Program-made: the position numbers and the translations under genes
Assembly (NCBI RefSeq): GCF_013141865.1
Contig: NZ_RCST01000001.1
Span: 1,302,001 to 1,366,000 of the forward strand
DNA from: Methylomonas sp. ZR1
GTDB lineage: Bacteria; Pseudomonadota; Gammaproteobacteria; Methylococcales; Methylomonadaceae
Direction of reading: 5' to 3'
Length of the DNA stretch: 64,000 bases
The notes under the pieces: generated by a model
Told to the model about the DNA's origin: nothing
What the model saw: only the letters and a program-made list of their open reading frames with translations
Database searches by the model: none
Part shown: positions 18,516 through 64,000 of the stretch, piece after piece
How the letters are laid out: each line of letters begins with the position of its first letter
Position numbering within the stretch: position 1 is the stretch's first letter

Positions 18516-18689
18516 TTGTTGTGAAATTCTAATCATGGTATAAAGGTAAGTTCACTATGTAACCAATACTCACACTTGTCGACACGGTCGGTGGGGTGCT
18601 GAAAGTCTGTTTCGGATTTTCGGTCACTGATCGGGGCGAGTGGAGGCGTAACCCAACGCCGAATTATTCGGCAATTTTAGGAGAAGTAA
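18516..18689 (+). promoter_or_regulatory. Promoter and untranslated leader of rpsB-tsf
   Basis: A possible sigma-70 promoter is TTGTTG (18516-18521), a 17-base gap, then TATAAA (18539-18544). Transcription from there would give a leader of about 140 bases containing GC-rich complementary segments (18580-18660) before the Shine-Dalgarno TAGGAG. In related bacteria the rpsB leader is a target for repression by ribosomal protein S2; whether this leader folds the same way was not tested. Confidence 0.4.
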
Positions 18690-41112: not shown

Positions 41113-41199
41113 CTTGTCGAGAGGAGCTGCTGCCGCACCGTTTATTCTTATTTCAATACATTTCATTTGCCCTACGACTAGCTGCGGCATACAATCGCC

Positions 41200-41312
41200 G
41201 CTGGTTTTAAGGTTCCCGCTCTTGGCGGGTGAAACTGGAAGTCGGTTAAATGCCGACGCTGCCCCCGCAACGGTAGGTGATTCGTCACGAGCCCGGAGAC
41301 AGGCCTAAAACT
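41200..41312 (+). promoter_or_regulatory. Cobalamin (AdoCbl) riboswitch
   Basis: The aptamer is recognisable from AAGGTTCCCG (about 41211-41220), CGGGTGAAACTGGAA, the core GCTGCCCCCGCAACGGTA (about 41260-41277) and the B12 box GGAGACAGGCCT (41295-41306). It precedes cbtB by about 100 bases. A short hairpin with a T8 run (about 41335-41357, CGAT/ATCG) may be the off-switch. In known cases B12 binding reduces expression of the downstream cobalt transport and corrin genes. Confidence 0.9.
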
Positions 41313-41410
41313 GTAGTCAACAGTATTGCGGAGGGCGATCTGTCAAATCGGTTTTTTTTGGTTTGTCTTTCCCTCTGTTATTCCGTCCACCTTATTCGGA
41401 ACAGACAACC

Positions 41411-54562: not shown

Positions 54563-56215
54563 CTACCTATCAGCTGCAGGTGTTTGTGCTTGAACGGATT
54601 GAGCCGCTGGATACGCCATTACCGAAGCCAGTTTACCTTGCTGATCCAACTCCACCACGAAGGCTTTGCCGTACAACGCCGGACAGCCGCAAAAGTTTGG
54701 CAATAGTTGCTGTATGGCATTGGCTGGATCGCTGGCGGTATTGGCCACCACAAAGGCGATGAAGGCATCCGAATCACTTTCAAAGGTCGATTCCTGAAAT
54801 TCATCGTATTCGCTTCTGAAACTGGCCATTTGTTGCAAAACCTGAGCCGAGCAATCGCCCTTGGGCACAATGATGTCATCAGCGTTTTCCTGGCCTTGGT
54901 AGCAAGCCTCATCCCTGATCTCAACAATATCCTGTCCAAGCCGGATTCGGTAAGCATCGCAAAACCGCACGTAGACCCAACACCAATCACCTTGAAATTG
55001 AGCCTGGTGCGATTCATTGACCGTTTCAATCACTAGCTCCTCATCCTTAAGATGCCGAACCAGCGAATGAAGCCAATGTCCCTTATCCAGCGAGCCATGG
55101 TAGAGCAAATAATTACGGCTCCATGCAAACATAAAACGCGCAGCGCCGTCCTGCTTGATGTCATCATCAATCGAAACGATACCGCGGGCCACTATGTCTG
55201 CACGGGTCATGGCTTTTTCCGGCCGTTGCTCGAAGTTATCAAAAACTTCGGTATCGCAAACCGGATAAGCAATGAGTTCGCGTAAGGCCTCGGGCGGTAC
55301 TACGGGCACATCGTTGAGTAACCGCAGAAGTTCCCAATGCCGCAACATGTCATAAAAACCGACAAACTCTTCAGCAGAGAGCGTGGCTTTCATCTGGATA
55401 AAGCGCTGTTCGATGGCTTTCGCCAGCACGGCTTTAACCCGCTTGACCACATCAGCCTCGTCGACCAGCTTGTCACGATCCGGCAAGCGGGCGTGAAAAC
55501 CGGCAGAATCCAGATGAATGATATGGCGGTGCGATGTATAGCTGTGCGAGGAATATATAGGTAAACCCTGCAGGTAGACATCGAACTCATATTGCGCTCC
55601 GTCGGGTTGATCCATGCCATGCAGATAAATCACACCAATCTCGGTGTCAACAAAAATCAACCCGCTATCCAGCGCGCAGGAACGTTCCAGCAATTGATCG
55701 TTGAACAGCACGGGAACGGGGAAACCGCGCACCAAGCGTTTCAGCGTGGCGGCAATTTGCCCCATCTCCAACGCGACATCCTGTAAGGTAATGCAGGTGA
55801 TACCGTTCCAATCTTCGATTGGTGTGATCGTTACCGGTTTAAATGCCAGAATGTGGTCGGTCTCGACATCGATCGAACCGCTTTTGCTGATGACGCTGAT
55901 GTGACGACAGGCAAACAGAGCCGATAGAAAGCCGATTCCGAACGGATGCTCGTGGGCGATCACATCCGCATCCCAGCCGGATTCGGCTACTGTCAATAAT
56001 GTTGCCATCGAGTCGATGCCGCAGCCATCATCCAAAACTTGAAGCGTTCTGGTTTCAGGACAAAAGTTAATCACCACCGTGGTCGCATTGGCTCGGCGCG
56101 CATTTTGAATGAGCTCGCCCAGGACCGCGGTTTTGTTGGTGAAGCTGAAGCGTAGACTGTTGACCAAGTTGGTTGGGTTCACTTTCATCGCGACTTCGTT
56201 GGTTTGTGTTTTCAT
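54563..56215 (-). CDS. GHKL (Hsp90-like) ATPase protein
   Basis: A 550-residue protein with an N-terminal Bergerat ATP-binding fold. The N-box is VLGELIQNARRANAT, the G1 box VLDDGCGID and the lid glycine box HPFGIGFLSALFAC. The rest (from about residue 200) has no recognised domain; it includes a region rich in Trp, Tyr and acidic residues. The layout resembles Hsp90/MORC-like proteins rather than histidine kinases. Proteins of this size recur on integrative/conjugative elements without known function. A structured leader precedes the Shine-Dalgarno GGAGA. Confidence 0.75.
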   Translation of the reverse strand: MKTQTNEVAMKVNPTNLVNSLRFSFTNKTAVLGELIQNARRANATTVVINFCPETRTLQVLDDGCGIDSMATLLTVAESGWDADVIAHEHPFGIGFLSALFACRHISVISKSGSIDVETDHILAFKPVTITPIEDWNGITCITLQDVALEMGQIAATLKRLVRGFPVPVLFNDQLLERSCALDSGLIFVDTEIGVIYLHGMDQPDGAQYEFDVYLQGLPIYSSHSYTSHRHIIHLDSAGFHARLPDRDKLVDEADVVKRVKAVLAKAIEQRFIQMKATLSAEEFVGFYDMLRHWELLRLLNDVPVVPPEALRELIAYPVCDTEVFDNFEQRPEKAMTRADIVARGIVSIDDDIKQDGAARFMFAWSRNYLLYHGSLDKGHWLHSLVRHLKDEELVIETVNESHQAQFQGDWCWVYVRFCDAYRIRLGQDIVEIRDEACYQGQENADDIIVPKGDCSAQVLQQMASFRSEYDEFQESTFESDSDAFIAFVVANTASDPANAIQQLLPNFCGCPALYGKAFVVELDQQGKLASVMAYPAAQSVQAQTPAADR

Positions 56216-56220
56216 GTAAT

Positions 56221-56300
56221 TCTCCGGGTATAAAAAAGCCCCGAGGACACGACACAGTCCAACCCCGACGGGGAGAACGGATCATCTCCCCGAGGCGGGT
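56221..56300 (-). promoter_or_regulatory. Structured 5' leader of the GHKL ATPase gene
   Basis: In the sense strand, CGGGGAG (56292-56286) pairs with CTCCCCG (56275-56269). A third GC block, CCTCGGGG (56246-56239), repeats the first arm and can compete for the same partner. T-rich sequence, GGAGA and the ATG follow. Same layout as four other leaders in this block. Confidence 0.65.
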
Positions 56301-56347
56301 GATACTGGCGAGGCCAGTGGTTAAGTTAAGTTCCGTCTAACACCGGA

Positions 56348-58111
56348 TTACGATGCCAAAGCCAGATCGGTAGCCGATGGTAGAGACCCCGTCCATTCCA
56401 ACAAGCTGGATTGTTCGTTTTCCAATACCGCATCGGGATCGATGCCGCGGCTGGTCAACACGCTGCTCATAGCCTGGGTTAACAGACGATGGCCTTTTTC
56501 CCGTTCCGACTCGCCACCGTGCTTGATCGCCCAAAAGGGATCGAATCGGATAGCTCGACCATTGCGTTTGCACTGCTTGTTCACTTCGGTGTGAAACGCC
56601 TTATCGAACGCTTCCGCCTGTTCGAACTGCTGCCAGAAACCTTTTCCAGCTTGGATGTCCACCGGCGGCAACCAGCGGCGCTGGCGGCCGACCCAACGGT
56701 TCATCCGATCGATCAAGATTTTGCTTTTCGGAAAAAAGTGAATGGTGCCGACGCCCGGATAATAGCGAACGTCAAAATAACTGCCACCGATCCGTTTTCC
56801 AACCCGAAGCGCGTGAAAATGCTGCCGAAACACCGACACCAAACTCACTTCCGCTTCGGTCTTGCCGTCGAGCAAAGCGAACACCTTGTCGAAGTCGGCC
56901 AGCAGCCGTTCCGATTCCCAGTTCAAACCTTTCTGGTAAGAACTCGAGCCATGACCCGGCAGAATGAAGCGCGTGGTTTTGATCCGCATCCCCAACGTGC
57001 GATGTTTGTCGTTGGATTTCCAGCCCATGTAAAACACCGCGTTATCGCTGACATAGCGGGTGATCAGATCGAATACATCGAAGACCATGCTCAGTTGAAT
57101 TTCACCTTGCTGATCGATGATGCCTTGCAGAAAGCCATAGATATTCGGTACGGCAAATTCCAAGGACTTCACCGTTTCGAAATCCGATTCCAAGCGTTTT
57201 TGCGCCGCCGACGACAAGCGCGACGTGACCTGTGTCGAGCGTAAAATGCTGACCCAGGCCCGATTCTTCAAATCGTGATAGCGTTTAAACAGCGTCCGCT
57301 TCACCGCATCCGAAGACGACTCGTCTTCACTACTGATACCGCCACCGCTCAGTTCGCCGAGAGTTTTACCCAGCATGGCCCGATAACGACTGGCTCGGGC
57401 TTCACTGAATACGGCTTGGCGCGCGGCTTCGACCGCGGCATTGAACATCAGTACCGCATTGTCGATGAAGGCGTTTGGTAAGGCCAACTCGTTGGGCATT
57501 TGAAACTCACCGGCTAAATCGTCGGCCTCCCGCCTATCCTGGCGCAAATCATCCAGAATACAGCCGAGGATGTCCTGCTCAAACGTTGAGGTTTTCCTCA
57601 ACCAGACCAAGGCCACCTCGACCGGCGTTTTGCGTTCGGCATCCTCGCCGGCGAACATTTCTGGCAGAAACTCGACTTCGCCGTGCTGCTCGATCAAACG
57701 CAATAACAGCTGGCGTTCTTTCGAAAACGGATTGCGCACGGTTTCGGCGTTGAGGATGGCGACGATTTCACCGTCAAACAAAATCTCCCAAGCCTTCAAC
57801 ACGTGTTTGGCCCCGTCGGCAAACGGCGGATTCATGATGATGTGCGAATAGACACTGCCGCTTTGAAACTGCAGAAAATCCATCCCCACCACGGCAAAGC
57901 CTTCATCGCGCAGAACTGCATGTTTGCGGATATCGATTTCAATGCAATCGATCGGCAAACGTTTCCCGTATTGGTAGGGTACTGAACGAAGCAAATGTCC
58001 TTCGCCTGCTGAAGGCTCCAATACCCGAGTGAATTGTTGGTTCTTGAACATAGCCCAGGCTTTACGGCTCAGTGCTTCTGGCGTGGGGTAATATTGATAA
58101 GGGTCTGTCAT
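56348..58111 (-). CDS. DUF4942-type N6-adenine DNA methyltransferase
   Basis: 587 residues from the ATG at 58111 (GGAGA upstream; a TTG four codons earlier would sit on the ribosome site). The N-terminal SAM motif is VLEPSAGEGHLLRSV and the catalytic motif IIMNPPFADGAKHVLKAW (NPPF), as in N6-adenine methyltransferases. The remaining 400 residues resemble the DUF4942 region (FDVFDLITRYVSDN, NDKHRTLGMRIKTTRFILPG, YPGVGTIHFFPKSKILIDRMNR in parts). Solitary methylases of this kind are frequent on conjugative elements and may protect the incoming DNA. No restriction enzyme gene is beside it. Confidence 0.8.
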   Translation of the reverse strand: MTDPYQYYPTPEALSRKAWAMFKNQQFTRVLEPSAGEGHLLRSVPYQYGKRLPIDCIEIDIRKHAVLRDEGFAVVGMDFLQFQSGSVYSHIIMNPPFADGAKHVLKAWEILFDGEIVAILNAETVRNPFSKERQLLLRLIEQHGEVEFLPEMFAGEDAERKTPVEVALVWLRKTSTFEQDILGCILDDLRQDRREADDLAGEFQMPNELALPNAFIDNAVLMFNAAVEAARQAVFSEARASRYRAMLGKTLGELSGGGISSEDESSSDAVKRTLFKRYHDLKNRAWVSILRSTQVTSRLSSAAQKRLESDFETVKSLEFAVPNIYGFLQGIIDQQGEIQLSMVFDVFDLITRYVSDNAVFYMGWKSNDKHRTLGMRIKTTRFILPGHGSSSYQKGLNWESERLLADFDKVFALLDGKTEAEVSLVSVFRQHFHALRVGKRIGGSYFDVRYYPGVGTIHFFPKSKILIDRMNRWVGRQRRWLPPVDIQAGKGFWQQFEQAEAFDKAFHTEVNKQCKRNGRAIRFDPFWAIKHGGESEREKGHRLLTQAMSSVLTSRGIDPDAVLENEQSSLLEWTGSLPSATDLALAS

Positions 58112-58120
58112 GGTATTCTC

Positions 58121-58180
58121 CAAAGAAGCCCCTGACGACCGATTTATCCCTGGCGGGATAGAATCATCCCGCAGGGGTAG
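58121..58180 (-). promoter_or_regulatory. Structured 5' leader of the adenine methyltransferase gene
   Basis: In the sense strand GCGGGAT (58172-58166) pairs with ATCCCGC (58159-58153). An outer pair CCCCTG (58177-58172) / CAGGGG (58134-58129) can enclose it. GGAGA and the ATG follow. Confidence 0.7.
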
Positions 58181-58224
58181 AGTGAAAGACTCGGTTTAAC
58201 CGAGTGTCGAAATCAAACGGCGCG

Positions 58225-58722
58225 TCATATCAACGCGAACCGCTTACCTTGAATGAAGTCCTGATACTGCCGGGCTTCGGTTTTTGCTTTGAATCGGGCA
58301 TGTACGCTGCCGTCGATCCAAATTTCCCATGGCAAACGGTTAAGCTCGCCTCTGACCAGTTCCACCGCGCCAACCCGAAAGTCGTCGTGTTGATAAAGTA
58401 CCTGGCGTGGGCTATCAATGCGAACGATGCACTGATCCAGTAATGCCGGACCACCGATATCGCCGGGTTCTATTAACAATGGCACTTTAATCGTGCCGGT
58501 CGAGCGACTAATCCAACCGATGACATCGTGTTCATCAAGCCACGATTGACCGGTAGTTGGATCGCCGTAATACAACCGGATTTTTCGCCGGCTATGGCGA
58601 AGCTGTTCCAACAACTCGACTACCGGTTCTGGTGTGTCGGCGTGATAACAGGTGCCGGATGACAAACGCTGATAGCGAATGCAATGACCCGTACCGAAGG
58701 TGTGTTGAAAGATTTGTGTCAT
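58225..58722 (-). CDS. Unknown mobile-element protein (165 residues)
   Basis: I do not recognise a named family. The protein is soluble and beta-rich in appearance: IRLYYGDPTTGQSWLDEHDV, GWISRSTGTIKVPLLIEPG, VLYQHDDFRVGAVEL and a C-terminal KTEARQYQDFIQGKRFALI. Small proteins with a YYGDPxTGxSW-type segment often accompany the methylase and VWA genes on such elements (from memory). The start at 58722 has GAGGA upstream and a hairpin leader. It reads toward the methylase gene. Confidence 0.65.
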   Translation of the reverse strand: MTQIFQHTFGTGHCIRYQRLSSGTCYHADTPEPVVELLEQLRHSRRKIRLYYGDPTTGQSWLDEHDVIGWISRSTGTIKVPLLIEPGDIGGPALLDQCIVRIDSPRQVLYQHDDFRVGAVELVRGELNRLPWEIWIDGSVHARFKAKTEARQYQDFIQGKRFALI

Positions 58723-58735
58723 GATGTTGTCCTCA

Positions 58736-58790
58736 ATAAAAATACGGAAACATCACGATTCCCCAGCGGGAATAGGACATTCCCGTGTGG
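58736..58790 (-). promoter_or_regulatory. Structured 5' leader of the 165-residue gene
   Basis: In the sense strand CGGGAAT (58785-58779) pairs with ATTCCCG (58773-58767). Alternatively ACGGGAA (58786-58780) pairs with TTTCCGT (58750-58744) using one G-U. The two pairings exclude each other. Confidence 0.7.
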
Positions 58791-58871
58791 ATGGATAAAA
58801 ATGAGTGCCGAATCGAATGACTTAGCTAACTCAGGTTTCTGCAAATTGCGCGCTTAAATCGCGCACATTTT

Positions 58872-59533
58872 TCAGGATTGGATTTCTAGCGCAGGTTTTC
58901 CCAAGGCTTGTAAGGCCAGAGGGATTAACTGATCTAAATTTTCCCAATCGATACTGCCGCCGTTGGCTTCGCCTTGTTGATAGGCTTCAACCAAACTGCG
59001 GCAAACTTGCAGGGCCGCTTGCTCTTTCTTCAATTGCCGTACCGAATAATCTGGTTCCGGCCACTGTGCAACGGCAACGCATTCCCAGACCAGGCTTTCA
59101 TCGCCCGACTCAAGGTATTCGTCGGACAATAACGGCATGGCGACAGTGTCATCCCAAATCGTGGCGTCATTGAATGCCTGCTCGGCAATCTGTTGTGCCG
59201 ATTCGGGACTGTCCGCGGTGATACCTACCGAGACTCGGTGCACATAATCGATTTCATACGAAACCACGAAGTGCCGAGTCATGCCTTCCGCCGAGGCAGT
59301 AGCTATGGCGGGTTCTTCGACTGGCGAATCGGTTTTCACCGACTCACTCTCGAGCAATGTGCTTTCATAAGGCTCGATCTCCTTGTTGCAGTCCGGGCAG
59401 CGATCGTTACAGGCGCAATCCCACACATCCTCCCATTCGGTTGGCAGTAAGGGCAGCGGTACTGATTCAGATAGCGAACCGTGCTGTTTTCGATAGCGGT
59501 TGTGCCAACGCTGGGTTGGTTGATTGTTTTCAT
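58872..59533 (-). pseudogene. Small zinc-motif protein gene, frameshifted
   Basis: From the ATG at 59533 (GGAGG eight bases upstream) the frame gives a short N-terminal part ending in YLNQYRCPYCQ, then runs out of sense. The other frame continues with EWEDVWDCACNDRCPDCNKEIEPYES and the remaining 190 residues to 58872. One missing base near 59439-59444 (a CAACCG that should read CAAACCG) explains this; the restored protein would be about 220 residues. It would contain a cysteine-rich N-terminal motif (CPYC...CNDRCPDC) and a domain with RHFVVSYEIDYVHRVSVGIT. Function unknown. A sequencing error is possible. Confidence 0.75.
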
Positions 59534-59544
59534 GGTCATGTCCT

Positions 59545-59592
59545 CCAAAAAATGCAGGAACGACCACCCGGCAGGATGAGGTTCCTGCAGGT
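59545..59592 (-). promoter_or_regulatory. Structured 5' leader of the frameshifted zinc-motif gene
   Basis: In the sense strand GCAGGA (59588-59583) pairs with TCCTGC (59576-59571), or the longer GCAGGAAC (59588-59581) pairs with GTTCCTGC (59561-59554). The two folds are mutually exclusive, a switch-like arrangement just ahead of GGAGG and the ATG. Confidence 0.7.
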
Positions 59593-59698
59593 AATAAATC
59601 GCTGATTAAAGCCGAAAATCGGCTCGCACAGCGGGGTTGAATTCGCGCAAAAATCGGTATATGGTGACTAAAACTCATTAAAAAGCAGAGAAATAGCC

Positions 59699-60076
59699 AT
59701 GTTTGACGATATTTTGCGCATTTTTGATTTCCTCAGTCCTAAGCAGACGGAAGAGACGTATCCAAGTCGAAAACCGATGGCGATTCCGGTCGACGAACCA
59801 CTAAAAGTCATTCGACATTGCCAACAAATTTTCCAAAAATTGGATGTTTTGGAAGCCGACGTGCTCAAGCGGATTGATAATCCTGAACAAGCCTGGCCGT
59901 TTCTAAACAAGATTCGACAGATTCGCCGGGAAACCCAGAACGATTTGTTGTCGTTATTGCCCGAAGGCAGCTGGGTATTTACTGATGAATCGAATCAAGA
60001 CGAGACTCCGGTTCGCCGTATCAATACGGCAACCGGAACCACGTTACGGGTCTTCAATGGCGGGCTTGCTGATTAA
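59699..60076 (+). CDS. Unknown 125-residue protein on the opposite strand
   Basis: I do not recognise a family. The protein opens with FDDILRIFDFLSPKQTEE and has a helical centre (VIRHCQQIFQKLDVLEADVLKRI, FLNKIRQIRRETQNDLLSLL in parts) and ends TTLRVFNGGLAD. It is the only plus-strand gene in this block, diverges from the frameshifted gene and converges with the coiled-coil gene, overlapping its 3' end by 23 bases. The codon pattern and a plausible start support a real gene. Confidence 0.6.
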   Translation: MFDDILRIFDFLSPKQTEETYPSRKPMAIPVDEPLKVIRHCQQIFQKLDVLEADVLKRIDNPEQAWPFLNKIRQIRRETQNDLLSLLPEGSWVFTDESNQDETPVRRINTATGTTLRVFNGGLAD

Positions 60077-60590
60077 CCGGTAACGCGTTGGCGTTACCTT
60101 TCAGCGCTTCCCGCAACTGAAAAACCTGTTGGGCGGTTTTGGTGGTTTTGTCATTTGCCAAAGCTGATTCGCCCACTTTTTTAGACCGCCGACGGGGTTT
60201 GGTCTCGGTTTCCGCCGAGACAATCGTCGGTTTGATTTTCAATAGCTCCCGCTCCAATTTGGTGATTTCAATATCCGCCTCGTAGAGTTTGATTGTTTTC
60301 TGTTTGGCTTGATATTGAAGCTCCAATTGCTCCAACTCTCGATTGGTTTCACGATTGCGACTCTGAATTTCCTGGCGCACCGAATCCGATATCGCCAACC
60401 AATCCAAGTCTTCTCGGCTACGTGGCATGATGACCGGTAGCCGATTTCTTGCCAATCGCTGCATACGATAGCGGTGAAACGCTTGAGTTACGTGTTTCAA
60501 CGTGCTAAAGATTTGCAACGCTGTTGCCCAAAGGACTCGCAGAGCGATGATAAACATCGCCAAAATGATGATGCCGAAAATAAAGTTCAT
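60054..60590 (-). CDS. Small membrane-anchored coiled-coil protein
   Basis: A 178-residue protein with one N-terminal helix (FIFGIIILAMFIIALRVLW), a basic stretch after it (HRYRMQRLARNRLP) and a long charged helix at about residues 75-120 (EIQSRNRETNRELEQLELQY, then AKQKTIKLYEADIEITKLE). The C-terminus is lysine/arginine-rich. The layout suggests a cytoplasmic coiled coil held at the inner membrane. No family is recognised. Confidence 0.6.
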   Translation of the reverse strand: MNFIFGIIILAMFIIALRVLWATALQIFSTLKHVTQAFHRYRMQRLARNRLPVIMPRSREDLDWLAISDSVRQEIQSRNRETNRELEQLELQYQAKQKTIKLYEADIEITKLERELLKIKPTIVSAETETKPRRRSKKVGESALANDKTTKTAQQVFQLREALKGNANALPVNQQARH

Positions 60591-60943
60591 TGAAGTTCTC
60601 CTTTAAAAGTTTAAAAAATCACTTCGAACGAACAGCACCCGGTCGGGCGATGGACGCCCAAAGCGGGTTTTGGATTTGCAGTGGGTAATACCTCTGCGAT
60701 TTACATCGGGCTTAACGCACCCGACACGATCAAGGGAATACCTTGCTCGCCGCCTATAGACGGAACGCCGACCGAAGTCGGATTCAGCATTCTTCGAAAA
60801 GAACACATGAAAGGTCTGTTTGTCGAATGGGCTCGTTATATGGAGTGCATTCGACAAACCGCAGTTGCAATCAGTTACCCATAGCCACAATCGCATAGGT
60901 TATGACCTAAGGATTGGGCTACGGATAATTGACTGGCCGAGAT
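60591..60943. other. 353-base non-coding stretch with a 12-bp inverted repeat
   Basis: No convincing gene is seen; a minus-strand frame at 60603-60896 and a plus-strand frame at 60681-60884 lack coding character. A perfect inverted repeat GTTTGTCGAATG (60818-60829) / CATTCGACAAAC (60848-60859) with an 18-base loop lies within it. It could be a terminator-like element or an untranslated RNA. Confidence 0.5.
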
Positions 60944-62764
60944 TTAGGCCGCCAACAATAACGATTTCGAGAGATCGAACAATTGCGCTCTCAACTCTGA
61001 AAGATCGTTAATGGTGATGGCAATCGGGAATAGATGACTGACATCCAATCCCAATCCCACGCCGACCGTTTCGATTCCACTATCGCGGCAGCGCTGTAAC
61101 AGTTCCAGCGTACTCAACGTATCGTTGGGTTGGCCATCGGTCATCACCATCAACACTTTGCGCGGTTCCCGGCAACGCAGTAGTGATGCCGCACCAAACC
61201 AGATCGCTTCGGTCATCGGTGTGCTGCCAGTGGCGGCCAGAGAAAAGGCGCCGGTTCGGGCATTGACGCGTTGACCATGCTCCAGCAATCGGAAAACTGA
61301 GTCATCCTGATGCCCTGGAAACGCAGTCACGCCGGGATTAACCCCCGGAATGCCTTCAAAGGCCAATGCCAGCGCCAAGGTGGCTTCCAACGCAATCGGC
61401 ATCCGCGATCCCATCGGTTGGCCTTGGCTATCAGTCACCTGATAACCCATGCTTTCCGATTTATCCAGTAGCAGATGAGTCGCCGTATTGGGTGCCGCTT
61501 TGGTCTCTTTGCGTTGAAACAGCTTGGTTTCTCCTAATGGCAAACGGTGTAAACGCTTGCCATCCATCCGCCGTCCACGACAGGCGTGTTGCGAGCGGTT
61601 GAGGGTTTGCGACTGCACCAGGCCTTGTAAAGCGGCGCGGATTTTTCCCGACTCGCCTTGCACCTTGCGCAGTAAAAACGCACTGGCCCGCTCATCCATG
61701 GGCGGCTCGTGGCCACTGGGCATTAGCAGTTCTGACACGTTTTCCGCCGCCAACGACAAGGCTGATTTAAGGGATTCAAACAGGTCTTGTTCAATGTCAC
61801 CGTCGCCGGCGGACAACAGGGTTTGCAAGACGCCCATCGGGTCTGCAATCTCCGTGCTCTCTTCGTTATCCCCTTGCGGGTTGGATGAAGAATTTTCTGT
61901 TTGCGCACTGGGGTCATCGTCAGGATTTTCCTGGCTGGAATCATCGTTATCACCGGATTCTGAAGACTGTTTGTCGTCATTATCCGCAGGTAAACCTTGA
62001 TCGTGTTCCATATCATCTTCGGAATCAGAGCCATTCGAATCTTCCGAATTGGCTGATTCACTATCCTGATCCGTATCATCCGATTCAGGCGATGTGTCCT
62101 CATCTGCCGATGGCCGTGCCTGATTACGTTGCCGTTGTTGCTCGAACTCCTGCTCAATCATGGTCAGGATGCGATCGGTCAACTGCAGACAATCGGACTC
62201 CGATTGCAAACCTTCCGGTACTTCCGACAACAAGCCTTTCAGCCGCGTGACGGCACCTTTCGGAAATTTCGCTTTCAGTGCCACTTCGGTTTGCGCGACC
62301 AAAGGTTGCAGGGCCGATTGACCTAATACCTTTGCCCGCAAACTTTTCAAGACAAAGCTGTACAGAATATTAGCCGGATGATCATCAATACTACTGGCCA
62401 CAAAGTCGCCTTTGGCAATCATCTTTTCAATTACGGTGCGGATGGTTAGTCGCGTTCCCGGAAAGTCCTTGGCCAGTTCGTGCTCGATGCGGACATCTTC
62501 GATGGCACCGCATAAGCGCCTGCGTAATACCGAATGCCCAAAGCGCAGCGTAAAATCCGAATAACGAATATGCGCCGCCTCGTGGGCCAATAGTCCCCAG
62601 GCGTAATCCTGATAATCCGCATCGTCGCCCTCATAGGCTGGCAGCCAAATGGTTTGGCCATCGGTTTCGGCTTTATCACCGCCGACACTGACTTTGACGC
62701 CAAAGCGATTGCCAATGGCCGCCGCGACGATGGGGAATGCGCTGTGTAAGGTTCTATTTTTCAT
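60944..62764 (-). CDS. CobT-like VWA-domain protein of mobile elements
   Basis: 606 residues from the ATG at 62764 (GGAG upstream; the longer frame includes the leader hairpin). The N-terminal half has a HEAAH motif (LLAHEAAHIRYSD), suggesting a metal site. Residues about 225-310 are a very acidic serine/aspartate-rich linker. The C-terminal VWA domain has the MIDAS motif LLLDKSESMGY, then TGSTPMTEAIWFGAASLL and VLMVMTDGQPNDTLS. It resembles cobaltochelatase CobT in shape. The CbiX/CbiD route nearby makes a B12 role unnecessary, and the same protein occurs on conjugative elements next to DUF3150 and a MoxR/CobS-like ATPase. Confidence 0.82.
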   Translation of the reverse strand: MKNRTLHSAFPIVAAAIGNRFGVKVSVGGDKAETDGQTIWLPAYEGDDADYQDYAWGLLAHEAAHIRYSDFTLRFGHSVLRRRLCGAIEDVRIEHELAKDFPGTRLTIRTVIEKMIAKGDFVASSIDDHPANILYSFVLKSLRAKVLGQSALQPLVAQTEVALKAKFPKGAVTRLKGLLSEVPEGLQSESDCLQLTDRILTMIEQEFEQQRQRNQARPSADEDTSPESDDTDQDSESANSEDSNGSDSEDDMEHDQGLPADNDDKQSSESGDNDDSSQENPDDDPSAQTENSSSNPQGDNEESTEIADPMGVLQTLLSAGDGDIEQDLFESLKSALSLAAENVSELLMPSGHEPPMDERASAFLLRKVQGESGKIRAALQGLVQSQTLNRSQHACRGRRMDGKRLHRLPLGETKLFQRKETKAAPNTATHLLLDKSESMGYQVTDSQGQPMGSRMPIALEATLALALAFEGIPGVNPGVTAFPGHQDDSVFRLLEHGQRVNARTGAFSLAATGSTPMTEAIWFGAASLLRCREPRKVLMVMTDGQPNDTLSTLELLQRCRDSGIETVGVGLGLDVSHLFPIAITINDLSELRAQLFDLSKSLLLAA

Positions 62765-62775
62765 GGTGTGCTCCA

Positions 62776-62828
62776 AAATACAGGGCAAACCATGACCCCA
62801 TTGGGACATGAATTTGCCCCAATGGGTG
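62776..62828 (-). promoter_or_regulatory. Structured 5' leader of the VWA gene
   Basis: In the sense strand CCCATTGGG (62826-62818) pairs with CCCAATGGG (62805-62797). GGGCAAA (62819-62813) in the loop side pairs with TTTGCCC (62789-62783) downstream. With a slight trim the two stems can form a pseudoknot. GGAG and the ATG follow. Confidence 0.72.
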
Positions 62829-62852: not shown

Positions 62853-64000
62853 TCAGAACCAGTAGTCCTGGTCAGAATCGTCCGCTTCCTCATCGTCTCC
62901 CGCCGTCACTGTTGCCGGTTCTGCTGAATGCTCAGAAGGGTTGGATTCATCTGCATCGCTGTCGGTTACCAGTTTGGTCTGATTTTTATCAAGTAAGACC
63001 TCAAGCGCCCAGTCATCCGATGCCGATTCCGGTTCGAGTTCATCGTCGAAGATGCCGTCAAACAGATCGGTATAATCGTGGCTGTCTGGAACGGTTTCAA
63101 TAATGACAGGTGTTGGTTCTGTTGCGACTGTTGTTGCTGTTGGTACTGTCGGTGGCTCGTACTCCGCGTGATCAATGGTTTCATCAATATCAACCTCTTC
63201 AACAACGGGCGGTTGAGTCGCTAATAGTCCTTCACCGTGCCGACGGGTTTTATCCGGATCGGACAACAGCATCGCCGTAGCTAAAATCTCCTGCAAAATG
63301 CTGCCTTCAATGGCACCTTTGTTGGGAATTCTCGCCAGTAGGTCGTCAATGGTGCTGACGACCGGCGCGACCCGATGATCCAGAAAACCCAGACCATCGA
63401 GTTTGTCACGCATACGGCGAATCGGTCGTAACGCATTTCGCGTCACTTGCTCCTTGCCTAGCAACGACTGCTCGATGAGTTGATTGGCTTCCACGGAGAT
63501 TTCGTAGAACATCTGCTCACTGAGTGAACCGATTTTGCTTTCCAGACGCGCGACGTCTGCCGGCGGCAAACTATCGGGCAAACCGACGCTGACCACCAGA
63601 AAATCAAACGACAGCCGCGTCGAGACAAACTCCACCGAATCCACCGCTTGCTCGATAATGCCGGCAAATTCCGGATGGCGAACCACCCAGTCAGTCACCG
63701 CCGCATCGTAACCGGCAATAAACTCGGTTTTAGCCGCTGCAAAATCCAGCGCAATGCGCTCGAGTTCCGCGGTAATACTGGCGGCCGATTCAACCGGTAC
63801 GGCAAAGCCACCCAGAAAGCGGGTGCCAACGCGCAAGCAAATGCGTTCGGCTTCCTTCTTCAGGCGGTTAAATACCGTCAGCTTATCGGGATCGAGCAAA
63901 CGTTTGGAACCCAGGCTGGCTAAATCCTCCGGCGGCAATTTGCTACCATCGGCCAGCACCAGGTCTTCTTTTTTCAGTTTCTTGCGGGCGCCGTAGATAT
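62853..64000 (-). CDS. DUF3150 protein (5' end outside window)
   Basis: At least 380 residues; the frame stays open to the right edge, so the start at 63959 is not the true one. The conserved opening ARKKL...LPPEDLASLGSKRL is typical of DUF3150. A long helical body follows (KKEAERICLRVGTRFLGGFAVP, in parts), then RNALRPIRRMRDKLDGLGFLDHR. The C-terminus from about residue 270 is acidic and low-complexity (rich in Glu, Asp, Thr, Val) and ends EADDSDQDYWF. DUF3150 proteins accompany CobT-like VWA and CobS-like AAA proteins on mobile elements; their function is unknown. Confidence 0.8.
   Translation of the reverse strand, partial: IYGARKKLKKEDLVLADGSKLPPEDLASLGSKRLLDPDKLTVFNRLKKEAERICLRVGTRFLGGFAVPVESAASITAELERIALDFAAAKTEFIAGYDAAVTDWVVRHPEFAGIIEQAVDSVEFVSTRLSFDFLVVSVGLPDSLPPADVARLESKIGSLSEQMFYEISVEANQLIEQSLLGKEQVTRNALRPIRRMRDKLDGLGFLDHRVAPVVSTIDDLLARIPNKGAIEGSILQEILATAMLLSDPDKTRRHGEGLLATQPPVVEEVDIDETIDHAEYEPPTVPTATTVATEPTPVIIETVPDSHDYTDLFDGIFDDELEPESASDDWALEVLLDKNQTKLVTDSDADESNPSEHSAEPATVTAGDDEEADDSDQDYWF

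Follow-up and report, generated by a model that had tools for sequence, protein, structure and literature searches.

In a 64 kb stretch of the 5.18 Mb genome of Methylomonas sp. ZR1 (genome coordinates 1302001-1366000, hereafter the window), genes of a mobile-element module are preceded by short leaders in which three mutually exclusive helices, one of them covering the ribosome-binding site (RBS), are each kept by matching changes among relatives. One leader segment must match both an upstream segment and the RBS of its own gene, which makes a strong case that the leaders act in cis, as RNA, to switch the translation of their genes, and we consider this reading highly probable. An initial annotation, made from the letters of the window alone, had described switch-like leaders under selection for structure before five genes on the minus strand, with starts at 56215, 58111, 58722, 59533 and 62764. 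All five lie where it placed them and contain every part that it listed: a GC-rich hairpin, a third segment competing for one arm, T-rich sequence, a Shine-Dalgarno (SD) sequence and ATG. Its structural reading is borne out by the covarying exclusive pairings, but its count of five is too low. The module is present three times in this genome, and a motif search of the three copies gives about 12 leaders per element; in the window a sixth leader lies at 60638-60668, and further ones follow beyond position 64000.

Three alternative pairings in one leader

From 5' to 3', the leader consists of segment A0 (ACCC), a few bases, segment A (GGG and a variable tail), a loop, segment B (CCC), a few bases, segment C (GGG), segment D, a T-rich stretch, the SD sequence and the ATG. 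In the leader of the gene for a CobT-like VWA protein (62762-62827, minus strand), A0 occupies 62821-62827, A 62807-62820, B 62800-62806, C 62795-62799, D 62783-62794 and the RBS 62762-62774. D complements both A and the stretch from SD to ATG of the gene that it precedes, and the three mutually exclusive helices are A:B, A:D and D:RBS. Examples of the last are D GGTGTTTCCCC with RBS GGAGAAACACCATG (locus L095) and D GATGTTTCCCC with RBS GGAGAAACATCATG (L077). The initial annotation had recognized the third segment that competes for an arm but missed the helix that D forms over the SD-to-ATG stretch. The pseudoknot it proposed for 62783-62826 is unneeded, as D complements the whole of A, including the GGGG that is also used by B.

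We selected leaders for the homology of the genes that follow them, without regard to structure, and obtained 82 representatives from 11 gene classes, all below 80% identity. Segmentation by regular expression succeeded for 77, from which one mis-segmented leader (cobS of L024) was dropped, leaving 76. The duplex energy of each native segment pair was then compared with that of segments exchanged between leaders of one class, in 5000 permutations. Within classes, all three helices favored the native partner, with z values of -8.5 for A:D (-17.4 when pooled over classes), -7.1 for D:RBS and -4.1 for A:B, and 0 of 5000 permutations matched the native value in each case. Three control pairings in the same test gave 0.5, -0.7 and -0.1. 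The tail of A without its GGG also matched D (z -7.8, n=76, within class).

A 20-nt RBS window diluted the D:RBS signal because any CCC pairs with the SD sequence, and the window was therefore narrowed. D then matched the RBS without the SD (last 7 nt plus ATG) at z -6.0 and the last 9 nt plus ATG at z -5.4 (n=82 and 0 of 5000 permutations for both). For the 9-nt version, a control window from -110 to -63 gave 0.3, and a gene class without the leader (n=9) gave -0.4. A score defined as the minimum of D:RBS and A:D separated leaders from shuffles only modestly (median 12.6 versus 8.8), so we relied on the swap tests instead. In an alignment of 24 sequences, the native covariation score was matched by 1 of 500 shuffles for the helices of the closed (OFF) fold described below and by 0 of 500 for A:D, and all slid versions scored below it. 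Covariation among homologues, which the initial annotation had named as a check, is thus found for A:B, A:D and D:RBS in the swap tests, in this alignment and in the further sets below. The complementarity that it saw as conserved holds for these exclusive pairings but not throughout the 62764 leader, whose bases between CCC and GGG are often unpaired in relatives.

In A0, A, B and C, the CCC and GGG blocks hardly vary. Beyond these blocks there are almost no conserved unpaired bases; only the base before A0, an A in 81% of leaders, stands out. Loops are not conserved, and the A-to-B loop can have anything between 7 and 17 nt. The T-rich sequence that follows D (-29 to -17) is 38-41% T and 9-16% A; TTTT occurs between D and the SD sequence in 49 of the 76 leaders and is missing from 27. 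Mismatches in A:D are G-U in 21 cells and A-C in 2, a difference for which base composition accounts in part, and D:RBS has no clear G-U bias (28 versus 20).

Recurrence in this genome and in other conjugative elements

A motif, that is, a pattern drawn up on this leader family, occurs before 26 of 32 module leaders in the three copies of this genome, compared with 0 of 267 other gene starts in 400 kb across the chromosome. This excludes chance and meets the question, raised with the initial annotation, of how often such hairpins precede random genes. We also built a covariance model, R1, from 24 Methylococcaceae leaders using the OFF fold only. In the ZR1 genome the best 22 R1 matches all fall inside the three elements; the 26 matches up to E 1 include two outside them (E 0.29 and 0.44). 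R1 matches 28 of 274 genomes of the class, 19 of these with at least two matches, and 15 of 349 genomes at the level of the phylum, the own genome being included in both counts; the two of these outside the class are model matches only.

The IncC plasmid pP91278 was covered at positions 1-49900 and 54353-122000 of 131520. In one block (57.4-84.7 kb), 23 of 35 genes have the motif before them, compared with 0 of the 93 other genes examined, and R1 has no match in 1-49900, the stretch holding the relaxase and many transfer genes. Of 27 plus-strand model matches on this plasmid, 22 end exactly at an annotated start codon. Because of this placement, and because A:D tolerates G-U over A-C, the structure most likely acts as RNA.

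Related leaders are present in elements of Methylococcaceae, in IncC-type plasmids and in conjugative elements of the DUF3577 type. Three further sets replicate A:D, and two of them give independent replication of D:RBS. The IncC-like set comprises pP91278, pVP7-1, a Stutzerimonas plasmid and an Alcaligenes plasmid (L112, L118, L113, L120). For 66 annotated starts that lie within the module of these plasmids or next to it, D:RBS has a z of -8.5 (control window 0.8), and the 30 leaders segmented by regular expression give -9.0 for A:D, -6.6 for A:B and -9.4 for D:RBS. Five other plasmids carry the same module with different pre-gene sequences (L115, L116, L117, L119, L122); at 64 of their starts D:RBS has a z of -0.8, and R1 finds no match up to E 1 in them.

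The second set, from DUF3577-type loci, was derived with R1, which gave 121 matches up to E 0.3 in 20 loci. After exclusion of reverse-strand copies, near-duplicates and weaker matches, 77 were used; 74 of these end in a start codon and 72 could be segmented. A:D is absent from R1 and hence independent in this set, where it reaches a z of -13.5 (A:RBS control -0.9); D:RBS and A:B are not independent there. The third set consists of pKLC102 and five further plasmids (L185-L190). Its D:RBS value is -6.8 (control 1.1) at 61 annotated starts chosen without the model, and A:D is at -8.6 in the 31 leaders segmented among 36 model matches used (47 matches up to E 1).

The genes behind the leaders are shared only in part. 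Four genes of the 35-gene IncC block (cobS-like, exo, DUF3150 and VWA) match all four compared Methylomonas stretches, ssb matches two of the four, two more genes match one each, and downstream genes vary between elements. Plasmid leaders also precede annotated DUF3577/STY4534, DUF3275 and DEAD-box helicase genes and others; in other genomes such names, plus RadC, were assigned by reading the sequence only. The leader is attached to a DUF3085 gene (L118) and to DUF3577 genes (L185, L186, L188 and L190). At L172:50-7378, near-identical leaders stand before eight consecutive genes, and the leader therefore seems to spread between genes as a cassette.

Two side observations concern these loci. 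The Serratia, Citrobacter and Shewanella plasmids L115, L116 and L117 have the same module with other sequences repeated before many genes, such as AAATATATAAATTTAT in L115 and a CCAATC-rich sequence in L117; it seems that every lineage uses a uniform pre-gene signal of its own. Group II intron matches lie near the end of a leader-bearing locus, at L173:567-2922 (minus strand).

Predicted folding, rival explanations and known systems

In the proposed OFF state, hairpin I (A0:C plus A:B) would be formed and D would be free to pair with the SD-to-ATG stretch of its own gene. In the ON state, A and D would be paired around a small B:C hairpin, leaving the RBS open. We calculated equilibrium folds at 37 °C for the 76 leaders. 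RNA extending up to C is predicted to form A:B in 76 of 76. RNA without the RBS forms A:D in 68 of 76, versus 49 of 227 when D is swapped in from another leader, and full-length RNA adopts A:B plus D:RBS in 56 of 76, versus 72 of 226 when the RBS comes from a different leader. All three stages are predicted to be passed in order by 48 of 76. The IncC-like leaders give A:D without the RBS in 21 of 29 and OFF at full length in 24 of 29, and the pKLC102 set gives OFF at full length in 23 of 31. By energy calculation, then, RNA that ends before the RBS would prefer the ON state and full-length RNA would mostly be OFF.

A growing RNA may accordingly pass through A:B, then A:D and then, slowly, A:B with D:RBS. 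Hairpin I would form first, the tail of A in its loop would catch the emerging D, D would displace B, and the RBS would compete only later; the T-rich stretch after D could slow the polymerase at this point. A heuristic path search gives a median ON-to-OFF barrier of 15 kcal/mol in model energy, and only the median was used, since at least one value is an artefact of unit handling (-72.5). If this barrier is right, the open form would be long-lived. An mRNA that is born open and closes later would restrict translation to the young transcripts of a long operon, for example just after entry into a cell. On these model energies we put such a timer forward tentatively. More tentative still is the wider proposal of a self-timed switch that is born open and then locks shut, needs neither ligand nor dedicated regulator, and is carried as a small cassette by the majority of genes in the DNA-processing block of numerous conjugative elements (IncC-type plasmids, pKLC102-type and other DUF3577 elements, and Methylomonas elements).

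Three leaders of the window follow the predicted course. The 62764 leader has an R1 E value of 7.4e-12 (it is not among the training rows of R1; a 69-nt relative from own copy 2 is), with A:D at 0.87 without the RBS and both A:B and D:RBS at 1.0 at full length. The leaders of the 59533 gene (59531-59593, minus strand; A0 59588-59593, A 59580-59587, B 59572-59579, C 59565-59571, D 59554-59564, RBS 59531-59546) and of the 58722 gene (58720-58790, minus strand; A0 58786-58790, A 58775-58785, B 58767-58774, C 58758-58766, D 58745-58756, RBS 58720-58734) each give 1.0 for A:D without the RBS and 1.0 for A:B and D:RBS at full length; R1 matches the first weakly (E 0.27) and the second at E 2e-7. The remaining two are variants. 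That of the DUF4942 gene (58109-58178, minus strand; A0 58172-58178, A 58161-58171, B 58154-58160, C 58146-58152, D 58129-58141, RBS 58109-58121), in which the end of D pairs with A0, has A:D at 0.99 without the RBS and, at full length, A:D at 0.90 and D:RBS at 0.09. For the leader of the 56215 gene (56213-56300, minus strand; A0 56294-56300, A 56283-56292, B 56269-56277, C 56261-56268, D 56239-56255, RBS 56213-56228), the values are 1.0, 0.68 and 0.32.

Several results weigh against a switch of this form in every leader. The two variants are predicted to be mostly open at full length, they fit the model less well than the others, and R1 reports neither at E up to 1. In the family as a whole, 20 of the 76 leaders favor A:D at full length, and nascent A:D is predicted for only 17 of the 31 leaders of the pKLC102 set. 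The leader of the gene for a 178-aa protein (60603-60668, minus strand) has hairpin I, found by motif search at 60638-60668, but neither it nor its class has a clear A:D, although a later segment matches the own RBS in several relatives. With the 20-nt RBS window, D:RBS is significant alone in only 4 of 11 classes (cobS, DUF3150, g5 and g1), and the DUF4942 class points in the opposite direction, with 0 of 3 leaders better than average. The A:RBS control of the IncC-like set is not fully clean (z -2.7). A0:C and B:C are weakly supported (z -1.9 each, n=76), because these helices hardly vary.

The same switch might also be set in trans, with an RNA-binding protein or small RNA of the element or host recognizing the near-invariant ACCC...GGG hairpin I and holding it ON or OFF. 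We regard this as quite possible, and it would add to a cis-acting switch without contradicting it. The near-invariant CCC/GGG blocks and the A that precedes A0 fit such a factor, as do the single block with one uniform leader in pP91278 and the other sequences repeated before genes in same-module plasmids that lack this leader. The unconserved loops speak against it, and a comparison of one IncC block with 9-25 kb per element found no gene common to leader-bearing elements and missing from the others.

The other explanations fare far worse. A transcription attenuator, with A:D and the T-rich stretch as intrinsic terminator and A:B as antiterminator, would account for the TTTT after D in 49 of 76 leaders and for the excess of T over A in the 12 bases upstream of -17; yet 27 leaders lack TTTT, the covariation of D with its own RBS and ATG would be left unexplained, and a terminator before each gene would stop a long operon. 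We consider it very unlikely. We give still less credence to palindromes acting as single-stranded DNA during transfer, as a promoter or protein site. In favor are the conjugative nature of the elements and the known single-strand promoters of leading regions (PMC12826799), but the matches that end at annotated start codons on the IncC plasmid, the match of D to its own RBS and ATG, and the G-U over A-C tolerance of A:D all argue for RNA. A metabolite riboswitch with hairpin I as aptamer is equally improbable: it shares the two-state layout with a sequestered RBS, but the leaders have almost none of the conserved unpaired bases that mark an aptamer, their A-to-B loop varies in length, and the regulated genes have no common pathway. 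By contrast, exclusive helices, one of them over the RBS and each covarying, are what distinguishes a two-state translational switch, and the leaders have them.

The principle of exclusive helices that hide an RBS is known. In erm-type translational attenuators, alternative helices free or hide the RBS as they would here, but a leader peptide is required, whose ribosome sets the fold, and the alternative pairs segment 2 with 3. In the present leaders it pairs segment 1 with 3, and an SD-preceded start codon between 45 bases upstream of A0 and B is found in only 4 of 76, so that a leader peptide of this type is not a feature of the family. The maturation-gene leader of phage MS2 is described in PMC6733600 as forming a transient structure that permits translation before a stable RBS-hiding fold, which gives the born-open principle a precedent. 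For the present leaders, a transient open fold followed by a closed equilibrium fold is a prediction from energies, with 48 of 76 passing the stages in order; the MS2 case is a single cloverleaf leader, whereas here a short linear A-B-C-D-RBS form is repeated ahead of numerous unrelated genes. According to the same source, the mRNAs of the toxins hok and aapA3 pass through successive mutually exclusive folds during transcription to a stable, untranslated final fold, and the leaders would resemble them in both respects. Those mRNAs are kept silent by their transient folds, however, and activated by processing, whereas the transient fold of the present leaders, confined to the 5' leader, would be open according to prediction.

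The initial annotation knew of no named regulatory element with this layout, and no Rfam 15 family matches any leader. At gathering cut-offs, scans of the window and 15 loci returned only a cobalamin riboswitch, t44 and group II introns, none on leaders. Low-threshold scans gave sub-cut-off matches only, which we take as chance; one of these, an MS2-operator match at 56384-56414, scored 26.1 bits against a cut-off of 40. A comparative study of 2017 reportedly included DUF-named RNA motifs, structured leaders before DUF genes. Part of the leader family may already have been named among them without a mechanism, and it may overlap with unpublished or non-Rfam alignments; Rfam 15 scans of the loci with leader-bearing DUF genes gave no match on leaders. 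Literature searches on DUF families found behind the leader and on broader subjects gave no description of it, nor is it described in the accessible parts of PMC3118119, PMC12826799 and PMC6733600. Within the limits of these searches, and apart from a possible overlap with the 2017 motifs, what appears to be new is the leader family, together with its three-helix form and its placement ahead of most genes in a conjugative block.

IncC and related elements move genes between many bacteria. A shared RNA switch before 23 of the 35 genes of the IncC block would add a layer of control over DNA-processing genes. If the switch were self-timed, translation of the block would be confined to fresh transcripts, for instance when the element has just arrived in a new host. 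The shared switch would also be an uncommon instance in which dozens of unrelated genes have received copies of a single folding path, a natural test set for co-transcriptional RNA folding.

The element and its genes

The module contains ssb, Bet, a lambda-type exonuclease, a CobS-like ATPase, DUF3150 and the CobT-like VWA protein, and named relatives of the element are mostly from Methylomonas. Genes inside the window were named by Pfam, and the remaining names were taken from annotated plasmids that carry the module as well. Leaders precede bet, a 110-aa gene, a small gene, the CobS-like, DUF3150 and CobT-like genes, the 178-aa gene and four genes after it, and not every one of these has a leader in every copy. 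The exo gene and a 255-aa gene overlap or abut the preceding gene and lack the leader. In many Methylomonas copies (L026 and relatives), CobS-like leaders have an additional small hairpin between D and the SD sequence.

All module genes of the window listed here are on the minus strand. The DUF3150 gene (62853-63998) is cut by the window end, and its leader lies just past 64000, at genome coordinates 1366056-1366123 (R1 E 1.9e-9). It is followed by the CobT-like VWA gene (60944-62764, 606 aa) and by the 178-aa gene (60054-60590; open reading frame and Pfam search). The gene with start 59533 (58872-59533) is broken in this copy: two frames cover 58872-59548 (minus strand) here, and homologues in relatives have a single frame. 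A 165-aa gene without a Pfam match (58225-58722), the DUF4942 gene (56348-58111, 587 aa) and a gene with a HATPase_c_3 domain (54563-56215, 550 aa) complete the series.

By reading of open frames, the bet-like gene of this element copy is apparently interrupted at about 1370510-1372870 by two IS21 istA/istB-like genes. A cobalamin gene cluster, identified in the same way, adjoins the element; the element's own CobT-like gene does not obviously belong to this cluster. The Rfam 15 scan places the cobalamin riboswitch at window positions 41193-41322 and the t44 RNA at 18551-18652, both on the plus strand.

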